This document shows positions 27,828 to 41,851 of a stretch of DNA of 64,000 nt, in pieces; within the stretch, counting starts at the first letter, position 1; every line of letters begins with the position of its first letter. The notes under the pieces were generated by a model. It ran no database searches and was not told where the DNA came from. It saw nothing but the letters and a program-made list of their open reading frames with translations. This DNA is from Staphylococcus saprophyticus subsp. saprophyticus ATCC 15305 = NCTC 7292. GTDB lineage: Bacteria > Bacillota > Bacilli > Staphylococcales > Staphylococcaceae. Both the position numbers and the translations under genes were made by a program. The DNA lies in assembly GCF_000010125.1 (NCBI RefSeq), contig NC_007350.1, positions 1,364,001 through 1,428,000 of the forward strand, given 5' to 3'.

Positions 27828-27910
27828 GCTTAATACATGCGAAACCGTATGTATACCACTATATACTTTATCTAATATCTTAATGCATGTATCTACACTA
27901 TAGGACAATA

Positions 27911-27950
27911 AAAGGTGACTGAGCTCCTTTTCAGAGACACAGCCACCTTT
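27911..27950 (-). terminator. Terminator of lysine operon
   Basis: AAAGGTGGCTG pairs with CAGTCACCTTT on the minus strand, followed by TTATTG; just 3' of lysA. Confidence 0.7.
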
Positions 27951-27953
27951 GGA

Positions 27954-29219
27954 TTATTTAGTATCATTGATAATTAATTGACGTAATGATTGACGTTTAA
28001 TAACTTCTCTTGCTTTACCATCTTTTAAGAAAAACACAGACGGTTTCTGCATTTGATTATAATTAGATGCCATAGAATAATGGTATGCACCAGTTGAAAG
28101 TATCGCTAGATAATCGCCACGCTTCACTGTGCTTGGTAATTGGGCATCTTTTATGATAATATCGCCAGATTCACATAACTTACCAGCGATTGTTACTGTT
28201 TCGTCTTTAGGATCATTTCTATTAACTAATAAGGCCTCGTATTTTGCATCATAAAGCGCTGTTCTAATATGATCGCTCATACCGCCATCAATGGAAACAT
28301 ACTTATTGACCTGAGGAATTTCCTTGATTGTTCCAACTTCATATAAAGTAATACCTGCTTCACCGACAATTGAACGACCTGGTTCGATACCAATCTCTGG
28401 TACCGGATAATCTGCATCTTCGGCAATTGATTTAATAGCAGCAGTAATCTCTGCGATACCTTCTTCGATAGGGAAACTTACATCACCCTCAACATATTTA
28501 ATGCTAAAGCCACCGCCTAAGTTAATTAAATCAACTTTGATATCATTTGCTTTCAACCAATTAATCACAATATTAGCAGTTTCAATCATAGCCTCTGTGC
28601 CTTCAATTTGAGATCCAACATGGAAATGAACACCTTTGAGGTTTAATTTTTGAGTATCTCGCACTTTTTCAATACCTTGAATAGCTAAGCCGTGCTTAAT
28701 TGATAAGCCAAATTTACTATCTTCTTGGCCTGTTTGTATAAATTCATGCGTATGGGCTTCAACGCCAGGATTCAATCTTAAAACAACATCAATTTCTTCA
28801 CTTGCATATCGCTCAATCAGAACGATTTCCTCTAATGAATCAATAACAATGTAACCAACTTTGCTTTCTAAAGCATATTGAATTTCATGTTTTGTTTTGT
28901 TGTTACCGTGAAAATGAATATGTTTTGGATCGAAACCAGCTTCTAATGCTGTATATAATTCTCCTTCAGACACTACATCTAATTCAAGTCCTTCTTCTTG
29001 TACTAATTTAACCATTTGTAAACATGTGAATGCTTTTGATGCATATGAAATATTGTATGCTAATCCACTTTGTTTGAACGCTTCATGATAACGTCTCATT
29101 TGGTTTCTAATTTGTACTTCATCATATACAAAAGTAGGGGTCCCAAAACTTTGCGCTATCGTTTTTAGACTTGTGCCTCCCATTGTAAGTTCGCCATTGC
29201 TATTATATTCTACTACCAT
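27954..29219 (-). CDS. lysA: Diaminopimelate decarboxylase
   Basis: 421-residue PLP enzyme that decarboxylates meso-diaminopimelate to L-lysine. Fold-type III signatures: the PLP-lysine in YNISYASKAF, HFHVGSQI, the phosphate-binding LGGGFSIKY, EPGRSIVGEAG and CESGD (active-site Cys/Glu from the partner subunit). Last gene of the eight-gene lysine operon; it starts 3 nt after the alr stop with an AGGAG RBS lying within the alr 3' end. Confidence 0.95.
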   Translation of the reverse strand: MVVEYNSNGELTMGGTSLKTIAQSFGTPTFVYDEVQIRNQMRRYHEAFKQSGLAYNISYASKAFTCLQMVKLVQEEGLELDVVSEGELYTALEAGFDPKHIHFHGNNKTKHEIQYALESKVGYIVIDSLEEIVLIERYASEEIDVVLRLNPGVEAHTHEFIQTGQEDSKFGLSIKHGLAIQGIEKVRDTQKLNLKGVHFHVGSQIEGTEAMIETANIVINWLKANDIKVDLINLGGGFSIKYVEGDVSFPIEEGIAEITAAIKSIAEDADYPVPEIGIEPGRSIVGEAGITLYEVGTIKEIPQVNKYVSIDGGMSDHIRTALYDAKYEALLVNRNDPKDETVTIAGKLCESGDIIIKDAQLPSTVKRGDYLAILSTGAYHYSMASNYNQMQKPSVFFLKDGKAREVIKRQSLRQLIINDTK

Positions 29220-29222
29220 AAT

Positions 29223-30296
29223 TTATCTATACTCCTTTATTAATGAGTCATGATTCATTGCACTTAATTGTTCTGAATTAGCGCCAACGCCTTTAAAAGT
29301 AAATTCATCGACACGTATATGGTTATTATATAGTATCACTTCATCTTGTGCATTGACACTGTCATCAACTTCTACAAACATATGACTCATCATAAGCGCA
29401 CGAATAGGGTAGCGCTTATGATTTATCAAAGCCTCATGTTGTGCTCTTGCTTTGAGTATACCATCACCATAACCAACATCAACGACTGCCAATTTTGTGT
29501 TATTTTTTGTCGCTTCAAAAGCAAAACTGTAACCACAAAATTCTCCCGCATTGACTTCACGCACTTGTATGACATTACCTTTAACTGTTAGCGATTGCTG
29601 TATGTCCGATTCATTGATTGTACTATAGGGTCTAGAACCATACAATGCAATACCAATACGCGCATGCGTATGGTTAGGTAATACACCTTGCTCACGATAG
29701 TAGCTTGCACTATTCTGTGCATGTATCATCTCAAATTCATATCCTTCATCAAGTAGCGTATCTACAATCTCTAACCACGCGGCGCGCTCTATATTATAAT
29801 CTGGAACATCAAATTCATCTGCGTATCCAAAATGCGTCCACAAACCACTAATGTGCATTTTATGTTCATTTTTATTCTGATTATGATGGTGAATGACTTC
29901 TTTAATTTCATCAAGTGTCTTTAAACCTGAACGATGTAATAAATTTTCATATTCCAAGTGAACTTGTATGTCATATAAGTCGTTAATATTTTCATAATAA
30001 AAAGAAAGGGAAGGCAAAGTCATTTGAATCTGATTCTCACGTATCTTATCAAATTCATAAACTGCATTCATCAAAAATATAGTAGCATTTGGCGCTAATT
30101 TGCGAATTCGAATTGCTTCTTTAAGTGATGTGGTACTAAATGTATTTATCCCTATATCTAAAAACTGTTCTACTGCAAATTCAAGTCCATAATGGTACGC
30201 ATTATTTTTTACTACTGCCATTATTTGGTTATCTTGTTTAACATTTTTAGCGTTTTCTTTAAATAATTGTCGGTTTACTGACCATGTGGCTGTCAT
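29223..30296 (-). CDS. alr2: Alanine racemase-like protein
   Basis: 357-residue PLP-dependent racemase of the alanine racemase family, with the PLP-lysine in [12 protein letters not shown] and the conserved [12 protein letters not shown] and VDVGYGDG. Its place inside the lysine operon corresponds to the second alanine racemase of staphylococci (Alr2); a role in supplying D-Ala, or on a related substrate, follows from the family rather than from this sequence. The start overlaps the dapL stop by 4 nt. Confidence 0.88.
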
Positions 30297-31450
30297 TGCG
30301 ATTGCACCTCACTATAAGATTTGAGTATTTGTTCATAGTAATCTGCAATACGTATTAATATAGATTCATTAAAGTTTAAATGAGAAGTGTGTAAACCAGT
30401 CACGTATCCTTTTGCTTCATCTCGAACTCCAACAAATACAAAATAGCTTGGTGCAATTTGACTATAGAAACTAAAGTCTTCACCAAATAAGTAAGGTGTA
30501 GGTTTATCAATCACTTCAAACTCAGCATTTACTAATCCATTTTCAACATGTTTGCGTAATTGAGGATCATTAAAAGTAGGAGGGTAACCTTCTTCAAATT
30601 TCACTTCACACTCGACATTAAATAATAATTTAACGCTTTCGCTAATTTTCGTCATTTGCTGTTTTACAATCTCTAAATCTTTCACATCATATGTTCTAAT
30701 AGTACCTTCTAAATAGCCGTTACTTGGAACCGTATTTATGGCTTCACCAGCTTCAAAATGTCCCATATGGACAATGTTTCGTTTCAATCCATTTAAATGA
30801 TATTGCTGTATCTGTCCTACTTGAGTCAATACATGTTGTAATGCCTCACCGCATGAATGCCCTTGCTCTTTATCAGCAACATGACTTGAAAGACCATGCA
30901 AATAGAATCTATACTCTGTAGCACTTGCTGTAATTTCTTCATCTCTAATCACAACACGGCCTTCATTTTCAAATGGCATGACATGTATACCAAAAACTGC
31001 TTCAATAGGATATTTTTCAAATGCACCAGCACGTATTAAACGATTCGCGCCACCTCCAGTTTCTTCTGCAGGTTGAAATATGAAGACGATATTTTGAGGA
31101 AGTTCGCCCTTATCAGCTAAATTTTTACATCGTTTAACAAATAGCATAAGGGCAGTTGTATGGCCATCATGTCCACAAGCATGCATAACATGATCTACTT
31201 CACTTCGGTAGGATACGTTATTTTCTTCGTAAATCGGTAATGCATCTATATCAGCACGATATGCAATCGTATGTGTACTATTTCCAGATAAATAGGCGAT
31301 AACGCCTGTATCTAAGGGACGTTCATATGGCACACCTAAATCATCTAAAAAATGCGCAATATACTTTGTTGTTTCATATTCATGTAAACTTAATTCTGGA
31401 TGCTTATGTAAATAACGTCTATGTTCTGTTACAAATTCCAACTCAGTCAT
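30293..31450 (-). CDS. dapL: M20 amidohydrolase, probable N-acetyldiaminopimelate deacetylase
   Basis: 385-residue metallopeptidase-like amidohydrolase of family M20D. Metal ligands: Cys/His in HACGHDGHT, Glu pair in PAEETGGGA, the later His in FGIHVMPF and the C-terminal H in GLHTSHLNF. In the acetylase branch of lysine synthesis this enzyme removes the acetyl group from N-acetyl-LL-diaminopimelate; the operon context with the tetrahydrodipicolinate acetyltransferase supports that job. The symbol follows Bacillus/Staphylococcus usage. ATG 31450 has AAAGGAT 9 nt upstream; TTG 31459 would abut the RBS. A 289-nt gap with a structured RNA element separates it from dapD. Confidence 0.85.
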
Positions 31451-31550
31451 CGATATCAAATCCTTTAAATTATTATATTAATTACACTAAATAAGCATAA
31501 TTGCTAGTTTGCTATGTATTATGTATAAAGTTTGTTTTGAATTTATAAAA

Positions 31551-31657
31551 ATAGGAGGATAGACAAACTTATCGAAACAAAGCGTAGTTTAACACTTAGC
31601 AATAGATAAGGGGAGACATCATAGTAAAATAGATATTGTCTCGTCTAAACCTCCTAT
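31551..31657 (-). ncRNA. Structured three-way-junction RNA element in dapD-dapL gap
   Basis: On the transcribed minus strand the outer stem ATAGGAGG-TT-TAGAC (31657-31643) pairs with GTCTA-T-CCTCCTAT (31564-31551), followed by TTTTTAT. It encloses two hairpins: GAGACA/TGTCTC (31642-31637 with 31618-31613) and CTTATC/GATAAG (31610-31605 with 31573-31568). The junction has only a few unpaired bases. The U-run after the outer stem suggests an attenuator or terminator within the operon; it could also be a processed RNA. No known riboswitch class was recognised. Confidence 0.55.
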
Positions 31658-31739: not shown

Positions 31740-32459
31740 CTAGTCGTTTAATTTTCTTAGTGCCGAAACGATTTCACGTTTTGAATCTTCGACTTCAGTT
31801 GTTTGTTTAATCACTTTTGCTGGCGTACCAGCTACAACTGCGCCTGCGGGTACATCTTGAGTAACAATGGCACCAGCAGCGACAATGGCACCGGCACCGA
31901 CACACACACCTTCAAGAATGACTGCATTAGCACCAATAAGTACGTCATCTTCAATAACAACAGGTGAAGCACTTGGTGGTTCGATAACACCAGCTAAAAC
32001 TGAACCAGCACCGACATGTACATTTTTACCTGTTGTAGCACGTCCGCCTAATGTAGCATTCATATCAACCATTGTGCCTTCTCCAACAACAGCACCGATA
32101 TTAATTGTTGCGCCCATCATGATTACAGCACCATCTTCAATAATGGCTTGTTCACGAATAAATGCACCAGGTTCAATACGTGCATTCGTATTTGTTAAAT
32201 CTTTCAATGGAATAGCTGAGTTGCTTCGATCCATTTCAACTTCAATTTCATCAATAACTGATTGATTAGACTCATAAAATGGTTTCCAATCATCTGCTTC
32301 ACAAAAAATAACTTTGGAATCAGATGAACCAAATACTTTAAAATCACTTGGGAAAGTAATGTTTTCAAAATCACCATTGATGTAGACTTTTAATGGTGTA
32401 GATTTTTTTGCATCACTTATATATTGAATAATTTCTTCTGCCGTTAAATGTTGTACCAT
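31740..32459 (-). CDS. dapD: Tetrahydrodipicolinate N-acetyltransferase
   Basis: 239-residue left-handed beta-helix acetyltransferase. The N-terminal alpha/beta part (1-90) precedes about seven hexapeptide repeats ([19 protein letters not shown] and onward) that form the acetyl-CoA-binding trimer. It acetylates tetrahydrodipicolinate, committing the pathway to the acetylase branch (also called dapH). Starts 22 nt after dapB. Confidence 0.93.
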
Positions 32460-32481
32460 AATTAAATTCGCTCCTTAGGGT

Positions 32482-35079
<2,598 letters not shown>

Positions 35080-35129
35080 ATACAAAACACTCCATTTTTT
35101 ATTAGTTGATTTTAAAAAGTTTTGAAAAT

Positions 35130-36338
35130 TCAGATATCAAAAGCTTGATATAAAGTCTGTACAGCACGTTCACCGTTTTCAGCATCGATGACACATGAAA
35201 TACTAATTTCCGATGTTGTCGTTTGATAAAATGAGATATCATTTTCAATTAAAGTAATAAATGCTTTTGAAGCTACACCAGACATATCTCTCATACCTGA
35301 ACCTATTAAAGAAATTTTAACGTATTCTTCATTAATTCTGAAGTCCAAGGCACTAAAGTCTTCTTTTAAAGTTTCCAGTATAGATGAAATTTGTGCAACA
35401 TCCGTATCTTTAATTGTAAAAGACATTTGTAAGCCTTCTAAATTAACAATTTGAGATATCATATCTACATTTACAGAACCATCTTCTAATTGACTGAATA
35501 ATTTTGTGAGTAATTTATTATCTGGTAAGGGGTAACTAATTGTAACATGCATCATATGTGTATCTAATGCAACGCCTGTGACGGCTTTCTTTTCTAAAAT
35601 TTCTGTTTGTGGCATAATCCATGTTCCTTTCACATTTGATAAAGTTCTACCTAAATATAGGGGAATGTTATAATTATTTGCTAATTCAACACTTCTTGTT
35701 TCTAATACGCCTGCACCTAAAGCACTCATTTCCATCATTTCTTCATACGATACATAATCGAGTCGCTTCGCATCTTTATATAGGCGAGGATCTGTAGCAT
35801 AAACACCATCCACATCTGTATAAATTTCACAAGGCGTATGATTACTCGCAGCTAATGCAACAGCAGTCGTATCAGAACCTCCACGTCCTAAAGTCGTTAC
35901 TTCTAAATCATCATTAATACCTTGGAAACCAGCCACAACAAGCACGTCATTTTCTTCAAATGCTTGTTCAAATGTTTCAGGATTAATTTCAGCTATACGA
36001 CTTTTCAAATGGTGCCCAACCGTTTTGATACCAGCTTGATAACCTGTCATAGCTTTAGCTCGAACGCCAATGTCATTCAAAACCATCGATAAGTATGAAA
36101 CGGTTTGTTGTTCACCAGTTGTGAGTAATAGCGCTAATTCTTGATCCTTTGGACTAGTGGTTAATGTAGATACATTTGCCATTAACTCATCGGTCGTTTT
36201 ACCCATAGCACTTACTACGACAATAAGTTGTTCTCCTTGTGCAATTCTCAAACTTAACATCTCAGCTATATTTTTAATTTTAGTAAAATCACTAACTGAA
36301 GAACCACCAAATTTCAAAACACTTCTTTCCAAATTCAT
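35130..36338 (-). CDS. lysC: Aspartate kinase
   Basis: 402-residue aspartokinase: N-terminal kinase domain with VLKFGGSSVSD and the GGSDTTAVALAA segment (about 1-240), and two C-terminal ACT domains for feedback control (LEGLQMSFTIKDTDV; ISLIGSGMRDMSGVA). It phosphorylates aspartate, the first step toward lysine and diaminopimelate. RBS GAGGAGG 4-5 nt before ATG. Preceded by a lysine riboswitch, so it heads the operon. Confidence 0.95.
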   Translation of the reverse strand: MNLERSVLKFGGSSVSDFTKIKNIAEMLSLRIAQGEQLIVVVSAMGKTTDELMANVSTLTTSPKDQELALLLTTGEQQTVSYLSMVLNDIGVRAKAMTGYQAGIKTVGHHLKSRIAEINPETFEQAFEENDVLVVAGFQGINDDLEVTTLGRGGSDTTAVALAASNHTPCEIYTDVDGVYATDPRLYKDAKRLDYVSYEEMMEMSALGAGVLETRSVELANNYNIPLYLGRTLSNVKGTWIMPQTEILEKKAVTGVALDTHMMHVTISYPLPDNKLLTKLFSQLEDGSVNVDMISQIVNLEGLQMSFTIKDTDVAQISSILETLKEDFSALDFRINEEYVKISLIGSGMRDMSGVASKAFITLIENDISFYQTTTSEISISCVIDAENGERAVQTLYQAFDI

Positions 36339-36374: not shown

Positions 36375-36410
36375 TAAAAAAAGAACAAGTCCGAAATGCG
36401 AACCTGTTCT
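36375..36410 (-). terminator. Riboswitch-linked terminator
   Basis: AGAACAGGTTCG pairs with CGGACTTGTTCT on the minus strand and is followed by seven T. It lies between the L-box aptamer and lysC and is the expression platform. Confidence 0.85.
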
Positions 36411-36606
36411 ATATTATATATACAAGTGATGCACTCCATTATCTTAAAATAATGACAGACTCTTAGCTCTTAACCATAAAGTCCAACATGTTATAAGCTG
36501 CTATTATAACCGTTTCGGCATCTCACCCTTTCAAAATTAGCTGCTAGCAGTCAGATTCTTCTAATCTTTACTAATGATTGATGCGCCTCATCAAAACCTT
36601 ATTAAA
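36411..36606 (-). promoter_or_regulatory. Lysine riboswitch (L-box)
   Basis: The minus-strand leader of lysC contains the L-box core landmarks: GATGAGGCGCATCAATC at the 5' side, AGTAAAGATTAGAAG, GGGTGAGATGCCGAAACGG (conserved GCCGAAA) in the middle, AAGAGCTAAGAGTCTGTC, and GGAGTGCATCAC closing the P1 stem at the 3' side. High lysine should favour the downstream terminator and stop transcription of the lysine operon. Confidence 0.9.
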
Positions 36607-39574: not shown

Positions 39575-40474
39575 ATGGCCCAAGATGAAAAAGATATTGT
39601 AGGTTCAATAGAATTCCTTGAAGTTGTAGGTTTAGAAGGTTCCACTTACAAATTAAAAGGACCCAATGGTGAAGAAGTTAAATTAAACCAATCTGAAATT
39701 AATGATGAAGATGAACTACAAATAGGTGAAGAATATAGCTTTTTTGTATATCCTAATAGATCAGGTGCATTATTCGCTACTCAAAATATGCCTGACATTA
39801 CTACGAATAAATATGATTTTGTAAAAGTTTTAAAAACTGATAGAGATGGTGCACACGTAGATGTTGGGTTACCACGAGAAGTACTGATTCCTTGGGAAGA
39901 TCTTCCGAAAGTTAAAGATGTTTGGCCAGTACAAGGTGATGAACTATTTGTTACTTTACGTATCGACAGAGATAACAACATGTTTGCTCGATTAGCGACA
40001 GAAACAATCGTTGAACAAATGTATACACCTGTGTTCGATGACGAGAAGCAAAACCAAGTGATAGAAGCAAGACCTTATCGTTTACTAAGAATTGGCAGTT
40101 TCTTACTATCTAAATATGGTTATAAAATATTCGTTCATGAAACAGAACGTAAAGAAGAACCTCGATTAGGTGAAAATGTTAGCGTTCGTATCATTGGTCA
40201 TAATGAAAAAGGGGAACTAAATGGCTCATTCTTACCCTTAGCACATGAGCGATTAGATGATGATGGCCAACATATATTTGACTTATTAGTTGAATATGAT
40301 GGGGAGTTACCTTTTTCAGACAAATCTAGTCCAGAAGCAATCAAAGAAATATTTAATATGAGTAAAGGCTCATTCAAGAGAGCAATAGGCCATCTTTATA
40401 AAAATAAAATTATCACGATTGAAAGTGGTAAAATTGCCTTAACCCAAAAAGGTTGGGGAAGAATCGAAAAATAG
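39575..40474 (+). CDS. cvfB: Conserved virulence factor B (S1-domain protein)
   Basis: 299-residue RNA-binding protein of the CvfB/YitL family: three S1-like beta-barrels (about 5-65, 70-140, 145-215) and a C-terminal winged-helix domain (about 225-299; FNMSKGSFKRAIGHLYKNK). In S. aureus CvfB affects agr-dependent virulence and binds RNA. ATG with GAAGGAG 7 nt upstream. Divergent from the ABC-F gene, single gene with its own terminator. Confidence 0.92.
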   Translation: MAQDEKDIVGSIEFLEVVGLEGSTYKLKGPNGEEVKLNQSEINDEDELQIGEEYSFFVYPNRSGALFATQNMPDITTNKYDFVKVLKTDRDGAHVDVGLPREVLIPWEDLPKVKDVWPVQGDELFVTLRIDRDNNMFARLATETIVEQMYTPVFDDEKQNQVIEARPYRLLRIGSFLLSKYGYKIFVHETERKEEPRLGENVSVRIIGHNEKGELNGSFLPLAHERLDDDGQHIFDLLVEYDGELPFSDKSSPEAIKEIFNMSKGSFKRAIGHLYKNKIITIESGKIALTQKGWGRIEK

Positions 40475-40599
40475 TTTCTTCTATTATAAAGCAGTGAACG
40501 ATTGAATTAATGATATTTAAATCACACTTCATTATTTAAGCACTTTATTACAATTGCTATTCATTGATTCAGTAAAACATCATACAGTAATCAATATTA

Positions 40600-40644
40600 A
40601 AACCTAAAAATACTACTTTTTTGTAGTTATTTTTAGGTTTTTTT
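40600..40644 (+). terminator. Terminator of cvfB
   Basis: AAACCTAAAAATACTAC pairs with GTAGTTATTTTTAGGTTT around six T, followed by a T-run. The remaining 250 nt up to pstS hold only the promoter region of the phosphate operon. Confidence 0.85.
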
Positions 40645-40778
40645 GTATTTTAATATTACAAATTCAAAACTTCTGTAATATTAAAAGAGGAGTAGAACGT
40701 TGATTTAAAGCGATTTTTGAACCAAAGTGATCACCTCACATTACAAATATAAATATTGTAAACAACAACAATAATTCC

Positions 40779-40795
40779 TTAACAAAACATTTACA
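40779..40795 (+). promoter_or_regulatory. PhoP-like box upstream of pstS
   Basis: TTAACA-5 bp-TTTACA direct repeat with 11-bp period, as in Bacillus PhoP boxes (TTAACA-like repeats), 97 nt before the pstS start. Induction by phosphate starvation through PhoPR is the expected role. Confidence 0.6.
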
Positions 40796-40891
40796 TTATC
40801 TATATTTGTATTTAATAAAAGGTGTGTAGTATAGAGAATGTAAGAAATACATATAACTTTTGGGTTATTCACTTATTAGGAGGATGTTTCA

Positions 40892-41851
40892 ATGAAAAAA
40901 TGGCAATTATTTGGTACTACAGCAATCGGTGCTTCACTTTTATTAGGTGCTTGTGGCGGCGGAGGTAACGCTGATTCAGGTAAAGGCGAAGGAGAAGTTA
41001 AAGGCGATGGCTCATCAACAGTAGGTCCAATCATTGAAAAACTTAACGAAAAATTTGCTAAAGATAATAAAGATGTAACAGTATCATCAGGTACTTCAGG
41101 TACAGGTGGGGGATTTGAAAAATTCATCTCAGGTAGCACTGATTTTTCAAATGCATCTAGACCAATAAAAGATGAAGAAAAGAAAAAATTGGATGACAAA
41201 GGTATTAAATACGATGAATTCAAAATTGCTCAAGACGGTGTAACAATCACAGTCAATAAAGATAATGATTTCGTTGACGAACTTACTAAAGAACAACTTA
41301 AAGAAATTTACTCAGGTAAAGCTAAAACTTGGAAAGATGTAAATCCAAAATGGCCATCTAAAGAGATCAAAGCTTACTCACCTGACCAATCACATGGTAC
41401 TTACGATTTCTTCACTGAAGAAGTTATGGACAAAGGGGATATCAAAGCAGAGAAAAATGCTGATACAAATGTAATTGTACAATCTGTTCAAAAAAATGAA
41501 CAAGGTATTGGTTACTTCGGTTATAACTTCTATGAACAAAATAAAGATAAATTAAAAGAAGTTAAAGTTAAAGATGATTCAGGTAAAACAACTGAACCAA
41601 CTAAGAAAACTATCCAAGATGGTTCATATGCATTGAGTAGACCATTGTATATCTACACTAACGAGAAAAAATTAAAAGATAACAAAGGATTCCAAGACTT
41701 CATGAAATTTGTTCTTGAAGACAAAGGTAAATCAGCTGAAGATGCAGGATTTGTTGCATTACCTAAGAAAGACTACACAGAACAACAATCTAAATTAGAT
41801 GACATCATTGGTAAAGATAGTAAAAAAGACGACGACAAAGACAGTAAATAA
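40892..41851 (+). CDS. pstS: Phosphate-binding lipoprotein PstS
   Basis: 319-residue lipoprotein: signal peptide with lipobox LGAC (lipidated Cys21), then a Gly/Asp-rich linker and a periplasmic-binding-protein type 2 fold. Phosphate-contact segments [21 protein letters not shown] and ASRPIKDEE are visible. Lysine-rich C-terminal tail ([12 protein letters not shown]). RBS AGGAGG. A long stem-loop separates it from pstC. Confidence 0.95.

Follow-up and report, generated by a model that had tools for sequence, protein, structure and literature searches.

The window analysed here is a stretch of 64,000 nucleotides from Staphylococcus saprophyticus subsp. saprophyticus ATCC 15305, and its (-) strand, on which all features of the operon described below are located, carries the lysine operon lysC-asd-dapA-dapB-dapD-(gap)-dapL-alr-lysA. 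The operon is headed by a lysine riboswitch aptamer (36421..36599; Rfam RF00168, 109.9 bits), followed by a terminator-like hairpin detected in a pattern scan (36410..36382). The last gene ahead of the gap is dapD (31740..32459), an ORF with orthologues in 84 of 84 Staphylococcus genomes, the closest named dapD being that of Staphylococcus sp. GSSP0090 (97%). The first gene beyond the gap, recognised by its ORF and sequence (30293..31450), encodes an N-acetyl-diaminopimelate deacetylase of the M20 family and is presumably dapL, a name taken from its operon context. Its start is the ATG at 31450 (the ORF list has an upstream TTG at 31459), and a Shine-Dalgarno sequence AAAGGA was identified by eye at 31461..31466. 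The ORFs of alr (29223-30296) and lysA (27954-29219) complete the operon, with a dapL/alr overlap of 4 nt and an alr-lysA spacing of 3 nt; apart from that between dapD and dapL, the gaps in this operon are short. Beyond lysA (27905-27955), a strong terminator-like hairpin, AAAGGUGGCUG...CAGUCACCUUUU, apparently marks the operon end. The original prediction had located an RNA structure between dapD and dapL in the lysine operon, and the gene order dapB-dapD-(gap)-dapL-alr-lysA in the window agrees with this.

The element occupies positions 31551..31657 and folds into a hairpin with a three-way junction. The outer stem P1 is formed by AUAGGAGG (31657..31650) and CCUCCUAU (31558..31551), the perfect 8-bp end of a 107-nt inverted repeat, and is extended by UAGAC/GUCUA (31647..31643 with 31564..31560). 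P2 consists of GAGACA/UGUCUC (31642..31637 with 31618..31613), and P3 of CUUAUC/GAUAAG (31610..31605 with 31573..31568) plus an inner stem. The linkers of the junction are 0, 2 and 3 nt long, so the compact three-stem fold over 107 nt with few linker bases was recovered at exactly the predicted coordinates. For the transcribed strand (130 nt) the minimum free energy is -36.6 kcal/mol, whereas 200 shuffles gave -18.4 +/- 3.2 (z -5.6). The opposite strand folds nearly as well (z -5.1), because the element is an inverted repeat, but has no U run after its hairpin. On the transcribed strand the outer stem is directly followed by a tract of five U residues (31551..31547), as had been claimed, the first of which, 31551, doubles as the last base of P1. 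Seven T residues are present in the 10 nt after CCTCC (CCUCCUAUUUUUAU); the tract is interrupted by A residues and is weaker than the T run of the riboswitch itself.

Covariation was assessed in seven species, i.e., the window, GSSP0090, S. edaphicus and four members of the xylosus group. The junction is the same in all of them, and 94.8% of pair cells are kept. There are 12 double-change cells (4.3 in shuffles) and the covariation score is 0.21 (0.10 +/- 0.02 in shuffles), numbers which come from about two clades and thus reflect few independent events. If the paired columns are offset by one, two or three positions, the signal is lost. The compensatory changes, which the original prediction proposed to seek across staphylococcal dapD-dapL gaps, fall mostly in P3; P1 and P2 are almost invariant and hence little informative, and UAGACGAGAC hardly varies among the seven species. 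A covariance model searched against 84 Staphylococcus genomes gave one match per genome, all 17 matches down to E = 0.03 being at dapD-dapL. The fold energy, the covariation and the confinement of the matches to this locus confirm the branched RNA structure as it was earlier described.

The junction is limited to relatives of S. saprophyticus and S. xylosus. Identity among 13 related elements is 66% at the base and 36% in the apical part, although the elements were chosen by GGAGG..CCTCC and about 10 of the 47 basal positions are therefore identical by construction. In this saprophyticus-xylosus-equorum-cohnii set the apical part measures 15-115 nt, may or may not include a junction, and is sometimes missing (loci L048 and L051). 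In 12 of the 13, however, 6-8 T residues occur in the 10 nt after CCTCC. The base stem and the U tract thus persist, while the top varies freely.

A wider comparison included 118 dapD-dapL gaps, 86 of them distinct and at least 50 nt long. Salinicoccus has essentially no gap at this place, and one large hairpin is found in almost every gap of Staphylococcus, Mammaliicoccus and Macrococcus. The sequences of these terminator-like hairpins are unrelated between species groups and fall into 26 clusters without alignable similarity. The best hairpin-plus-U-tract energy in 85 distinct gaps has a median of -25 kcal/mol, compared with -11.7 in shuffled gaps; the median is the fair measure here, as 76 of the 85 gaps reach a cut-off of -12, and 49% of shuffles do so too. 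These observations are best explained by a terminator at a fixed dapD-dapL position in most of the genus, of which the branched form is a lineage-specific version. In several staphylococci (loci L065, L066, L069 and L072) the hairpin is a AGGCUGGGAC...GUCUCAGCCU palindrome and seems to be a dispersed staphylococcal hairpin that has been recruited as a terminator here. Two gaps are unusually long, that of L204 (434 nt, folding to -143 kcal/mol) and that of L168 (723 nt), and possibly contain insertions of structured repeats.

We consider it probable (roughly 70%) that the element acts as a leaky intrinsic (Rho-independent) terminator inside the lysine operon, which is under riboswitch control. 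According to this proposal, polymerase that has passed lysC-asd-dapA-dapB-dapD would form the base of P1 (GGAGG/CCUCC with A-U pairs below it) and then transcribe the U tract, at which a fraction of polymerases would be released. The remaining ones would read through into dapL-alr-lysA, lowering the dose of the downstream products, alr and lysA among them. The two upper arms of the junction would be an addition specific to this lineage, by which the halves of the base stem are brought together, and the hairpin should also shield the 3' end of the upstream mRNA. Termination itself in S. saprophyticus, its efficiency and the protection of the 3' end are inferred. The main reason to prefer a terminator is the persistence of base and U tract under a varying top, as a terminator requires only these two parts and an aptamer requires its core. 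The element resembles known intrinsic terminators in its GC-rich base stem with a U tract immediately behind, and in its location inside a co-transcribed operon with apparent read-through. It differs from them in that the halves of the base are about 90 nt apart, a branched apical part with a three-way junction replacing the usual loop of 3-8 nt. The short loop is a common property of terminators rather than a mechanistic requirement. A simple terminator pattern scan did not flag the element, because its loop is far above the 8 nt allowed by the scan. The product of dapL is needed for the synthesis of lysine and of wall precursors, so strong termination would require a second promoter, and a promoter scan found no convincing one downstream of the hairpin. 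A weak intra-operonic terminator has reportedly been described downstream of S. aureus mazEF; our literature search found no report on terminators in the lysine operon.

Published expression data for S. aureus bear on the position of the proposed terminator. In an array analysis of a codY mutant, lysC to dapD were up 10.9-14.4 fold and dapL and alr2 9.2 fold, with 26.4 fold for a probe in the dapD-dapL intergenic region (PMC4207797). Treatment with ortho-phenylphenol lowered the array signals of lysC to dapD 21.5-54.6 fold, with values of -23.5 for dapD and -18.5 for alr (PMC2562396). Rhodomyrtone increased the expression of asd, dapA, dapB and dapD, and lysA, which served as the unchanged control, was lower at 1 h (PMC3459976). 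The gene list of a clpX study includes lysC-asd-dapA-dapB-dapD only (PMC6848492). In our reading of these arrays the downstream genes follow with lower amplitude, which fits what a leaky terminator would give. The data support the position and not this particular fold, since the S. aureus hairpin has a different sequence at the same place.

Behind the hairpin a single motif survives between species groups, and nearly all other sequence has been lost. In the window two AUACAUA heptamers directly adjoin each other (31526..31520 and 31519..31513), each with the hexamer UACAUA targeted by MazF and EndoA. ATACATA is the top-ranked k-mer family across the unalignable gap clusters; it occurs in 53 of the 86 distinct gaps (4.3 expected) and in 13.2 of the 26 clusters (1.0 expected; largest value in 300 trials, 6). 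In most species the heptamer lies 0-30 nt behind the hairpin, and its distance to the dapL start varies widely, so it does not belong to the ribosome-binding site. As a control, five further orthologous gaps, each likewise split into many unalignable clusters, were analysed in 21 genomes and showed no excess of TACATA (found/expected 0/1.2, 2/2.1, 0/1.0, 0/0.7 and 5/4.4). In the same genomes the dapD-dapL gap gave 16/3.1 in full and 11/2.8 after removal of its last 15 nt. The heptamer does not appear to be a general post-terminator motif, as ATACATA is not enriched across the window (29 vs 25.6 expected); TACATA is weakly enriched in the gap after lysA in relatives (5 vs 2.7 expected). Pairing of AUACAUA with an upstream UAUGUAU is present in the window fold and is not general. 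Elsewhere in the window, the gap 40475-40891 (between the ORFs 39575-40474 and 40892-41851) has TACATA in 14 of 15 species (5.0 expected); it is alignable throughout, and plain conservation may explain the motif there.

The heptamer raises the possibility, which we hold to be rather doubtful, that the chief role of the hairpin is to protect the upstream mRNA at its 3' end, and that under stress the chromosomal MazF toxin cuts the AUACAUA behind it (U^ACAUA). Such a cut would split the read-through mRNA into lysC-dapD and dapL-alr-lysA, and is compatible with termination. The excess of ATACATA across unalignable gaps, together with the absence of TACATA excess in other fast-diverging gaps nearby, is in line with this idea. 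The motif is also mostly unpaired, with a mean unpaired probability of 0.67 in 58 gaps against a background of 0.41; in the window gap, where two UACAUA hexamers (31526..31513) offer candidate single-stranded U^ACAU(A) sites, the value is only 0.49. Furthermore, UACAUA is depleted from the lysC-dapD coding sequences (window 31740-36338), with 2 found and 10.2 expected from synonymous shuffles in up to 21 genomes; the depletion is mostly in asd (1 vs 6.7). For dapL-alr-lysA the same comparison gave 26 found and 38.7 expected. The host has its own MazF, with about 90% identity to the S. aureus protein. The S. aureus MazF cuts UACAU in vivo even without stress (PMC4428803), and B. subtilis EndoA cuts U/ACAUA only (PMC11780869).

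Other observations weigh against cleavage. The site is absent in S. aureus and several other lineages, which still encode MazF, and the additional 5' A, present in 53 of 58 sites, is not accounted for by the known MazF specificity. Not all UACAU sequences are cut in vivo, and mutations of the sites in spa and rsbW brought no change at the protein level (PMC4428803). When compared with MazF/EndoA sites (UACAU or U^ACAUA; e.g., S. aureus spa and rsbW), the motif behind the hairpin has the exact hexamer and is mostly unpaired, but this candidate site carries an added 5' A and is kept at one operon position across the genus. A still bolder version, to which we give slightly less credence, is that the protective hairpin or terminator and the conserved MazF target AUACAUA would form a genus-wide cassette, in which activated MazF would cut the lysine-operon mRNA at a programmed point. 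The same version would have the hairpin-capped, site-free lysC-dapD half kept and the dapL-alr-lysA half separated.

What is new here is the conserved heptamer AUACAUA behind the hairpin, which by its sequence contains the MazF/EndoA hexamer. The dapD-dapL gap is the point that divides an otherwise tightly packed operon for lysine and cell-wall precursors in nearly every staphylococcus, and the heptamer matching the MazF site is almost the sole sequence kept in it. To our knowledge, the natural targets of MazF remain unclear. If MazF cuts here, this toxin-antitoxin RNase would have a conserved physiological target in the synthesis of peptidoglycan precursors; a deletion of mazEF alters beta-lactam susceptibility (PMC4428803).

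The original prediction also left room for a new attenuator. The element is attenuator-like in the broad sense of a leaky intrinsic terminator, but its assignment to a regulated class found no support. A ligand- or protein-controlled attenuator, i.e., a new riboswitch or leader class whose junction would sense lysine, DAP or D-Ala and toggle the terminator, might be expected in a lysine/D-Ala operon, and the compact junction, the covariation in P3 and the nearly invariant segment in the seven species speak for it. We regard it as quite improbable, since the junction occurs in the saprophyticus-xylosus clade only and the apical part is hypervariable and occasionally missing. A conserved unpaired core is lacking, no antiterminator pairing is evident, a lysine riboswitch already heads the operon, and the hairpins of other staphylococci in this gap are unrelated. 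An Rfam search gave no match for the window element or for 20 related loci, as expected from the claim that it belongs to neither the lysine riboswitch nor any known class. The element shares the operon with the lysine riboswitch (RF00168) and is likewise an RNA with a terminator; it differs in fitting no Rfam model, and the riboswitch lies 4.8 kb upstream, before lysC. The element is therefore probably not a riboswitch, and the three-way junction is better seen as a terminator with a decorated top, which cautions against calling branched folds new riboswitches. A leader peptide behind the GGAGG of P1 was considered by eye and rejected: no start codon is suitably spaced from it, and other clades have not kept the GGAGG.

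Equally improbable is a reading of AUACAUA as the -10 sequence of an internal dapL promoter, with the hairpin as an insulating terminator. A place between terminator and ribosome-binding site would suit a promoter, and TATACATA is AT-rich, but no -35-like hexamer lies upstream, where the terminator stem occupies the place, and the final T of TATAAT is absent in most copies. In several species no more than about 9 nt separate the motif from the Shine-Dalgarno sequence, which leaves too little room for a start site, and the promoter scan called no promoter there; this reading was rejected for want of a -35 sequence and because of the spacing.

That the element is a mobile palindromic or MITE-like repeat inserted between dapD and dapL, as the original prediction alternatively suggested, can be set aside almost entirely: the 107-nt inverted repeat with its perfect 8-bp end and the fast turnover of gap sequence between species groups would suit such an origin, but BLAST of the own genome found one full copy, so the multiplication typical of a repeat element is not seen, the confident covariance-model matches in 84 genomes are single and always at dapD-dapL, and the fold is preserved by compensatory changes. 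A search for relatives on plasmids gave no match. Apart from the lysine operon, the window has a match to the S. aureus small RNA tsr25 (RF02578, 101.5 bits) at 884-1060 on the (-) strand.
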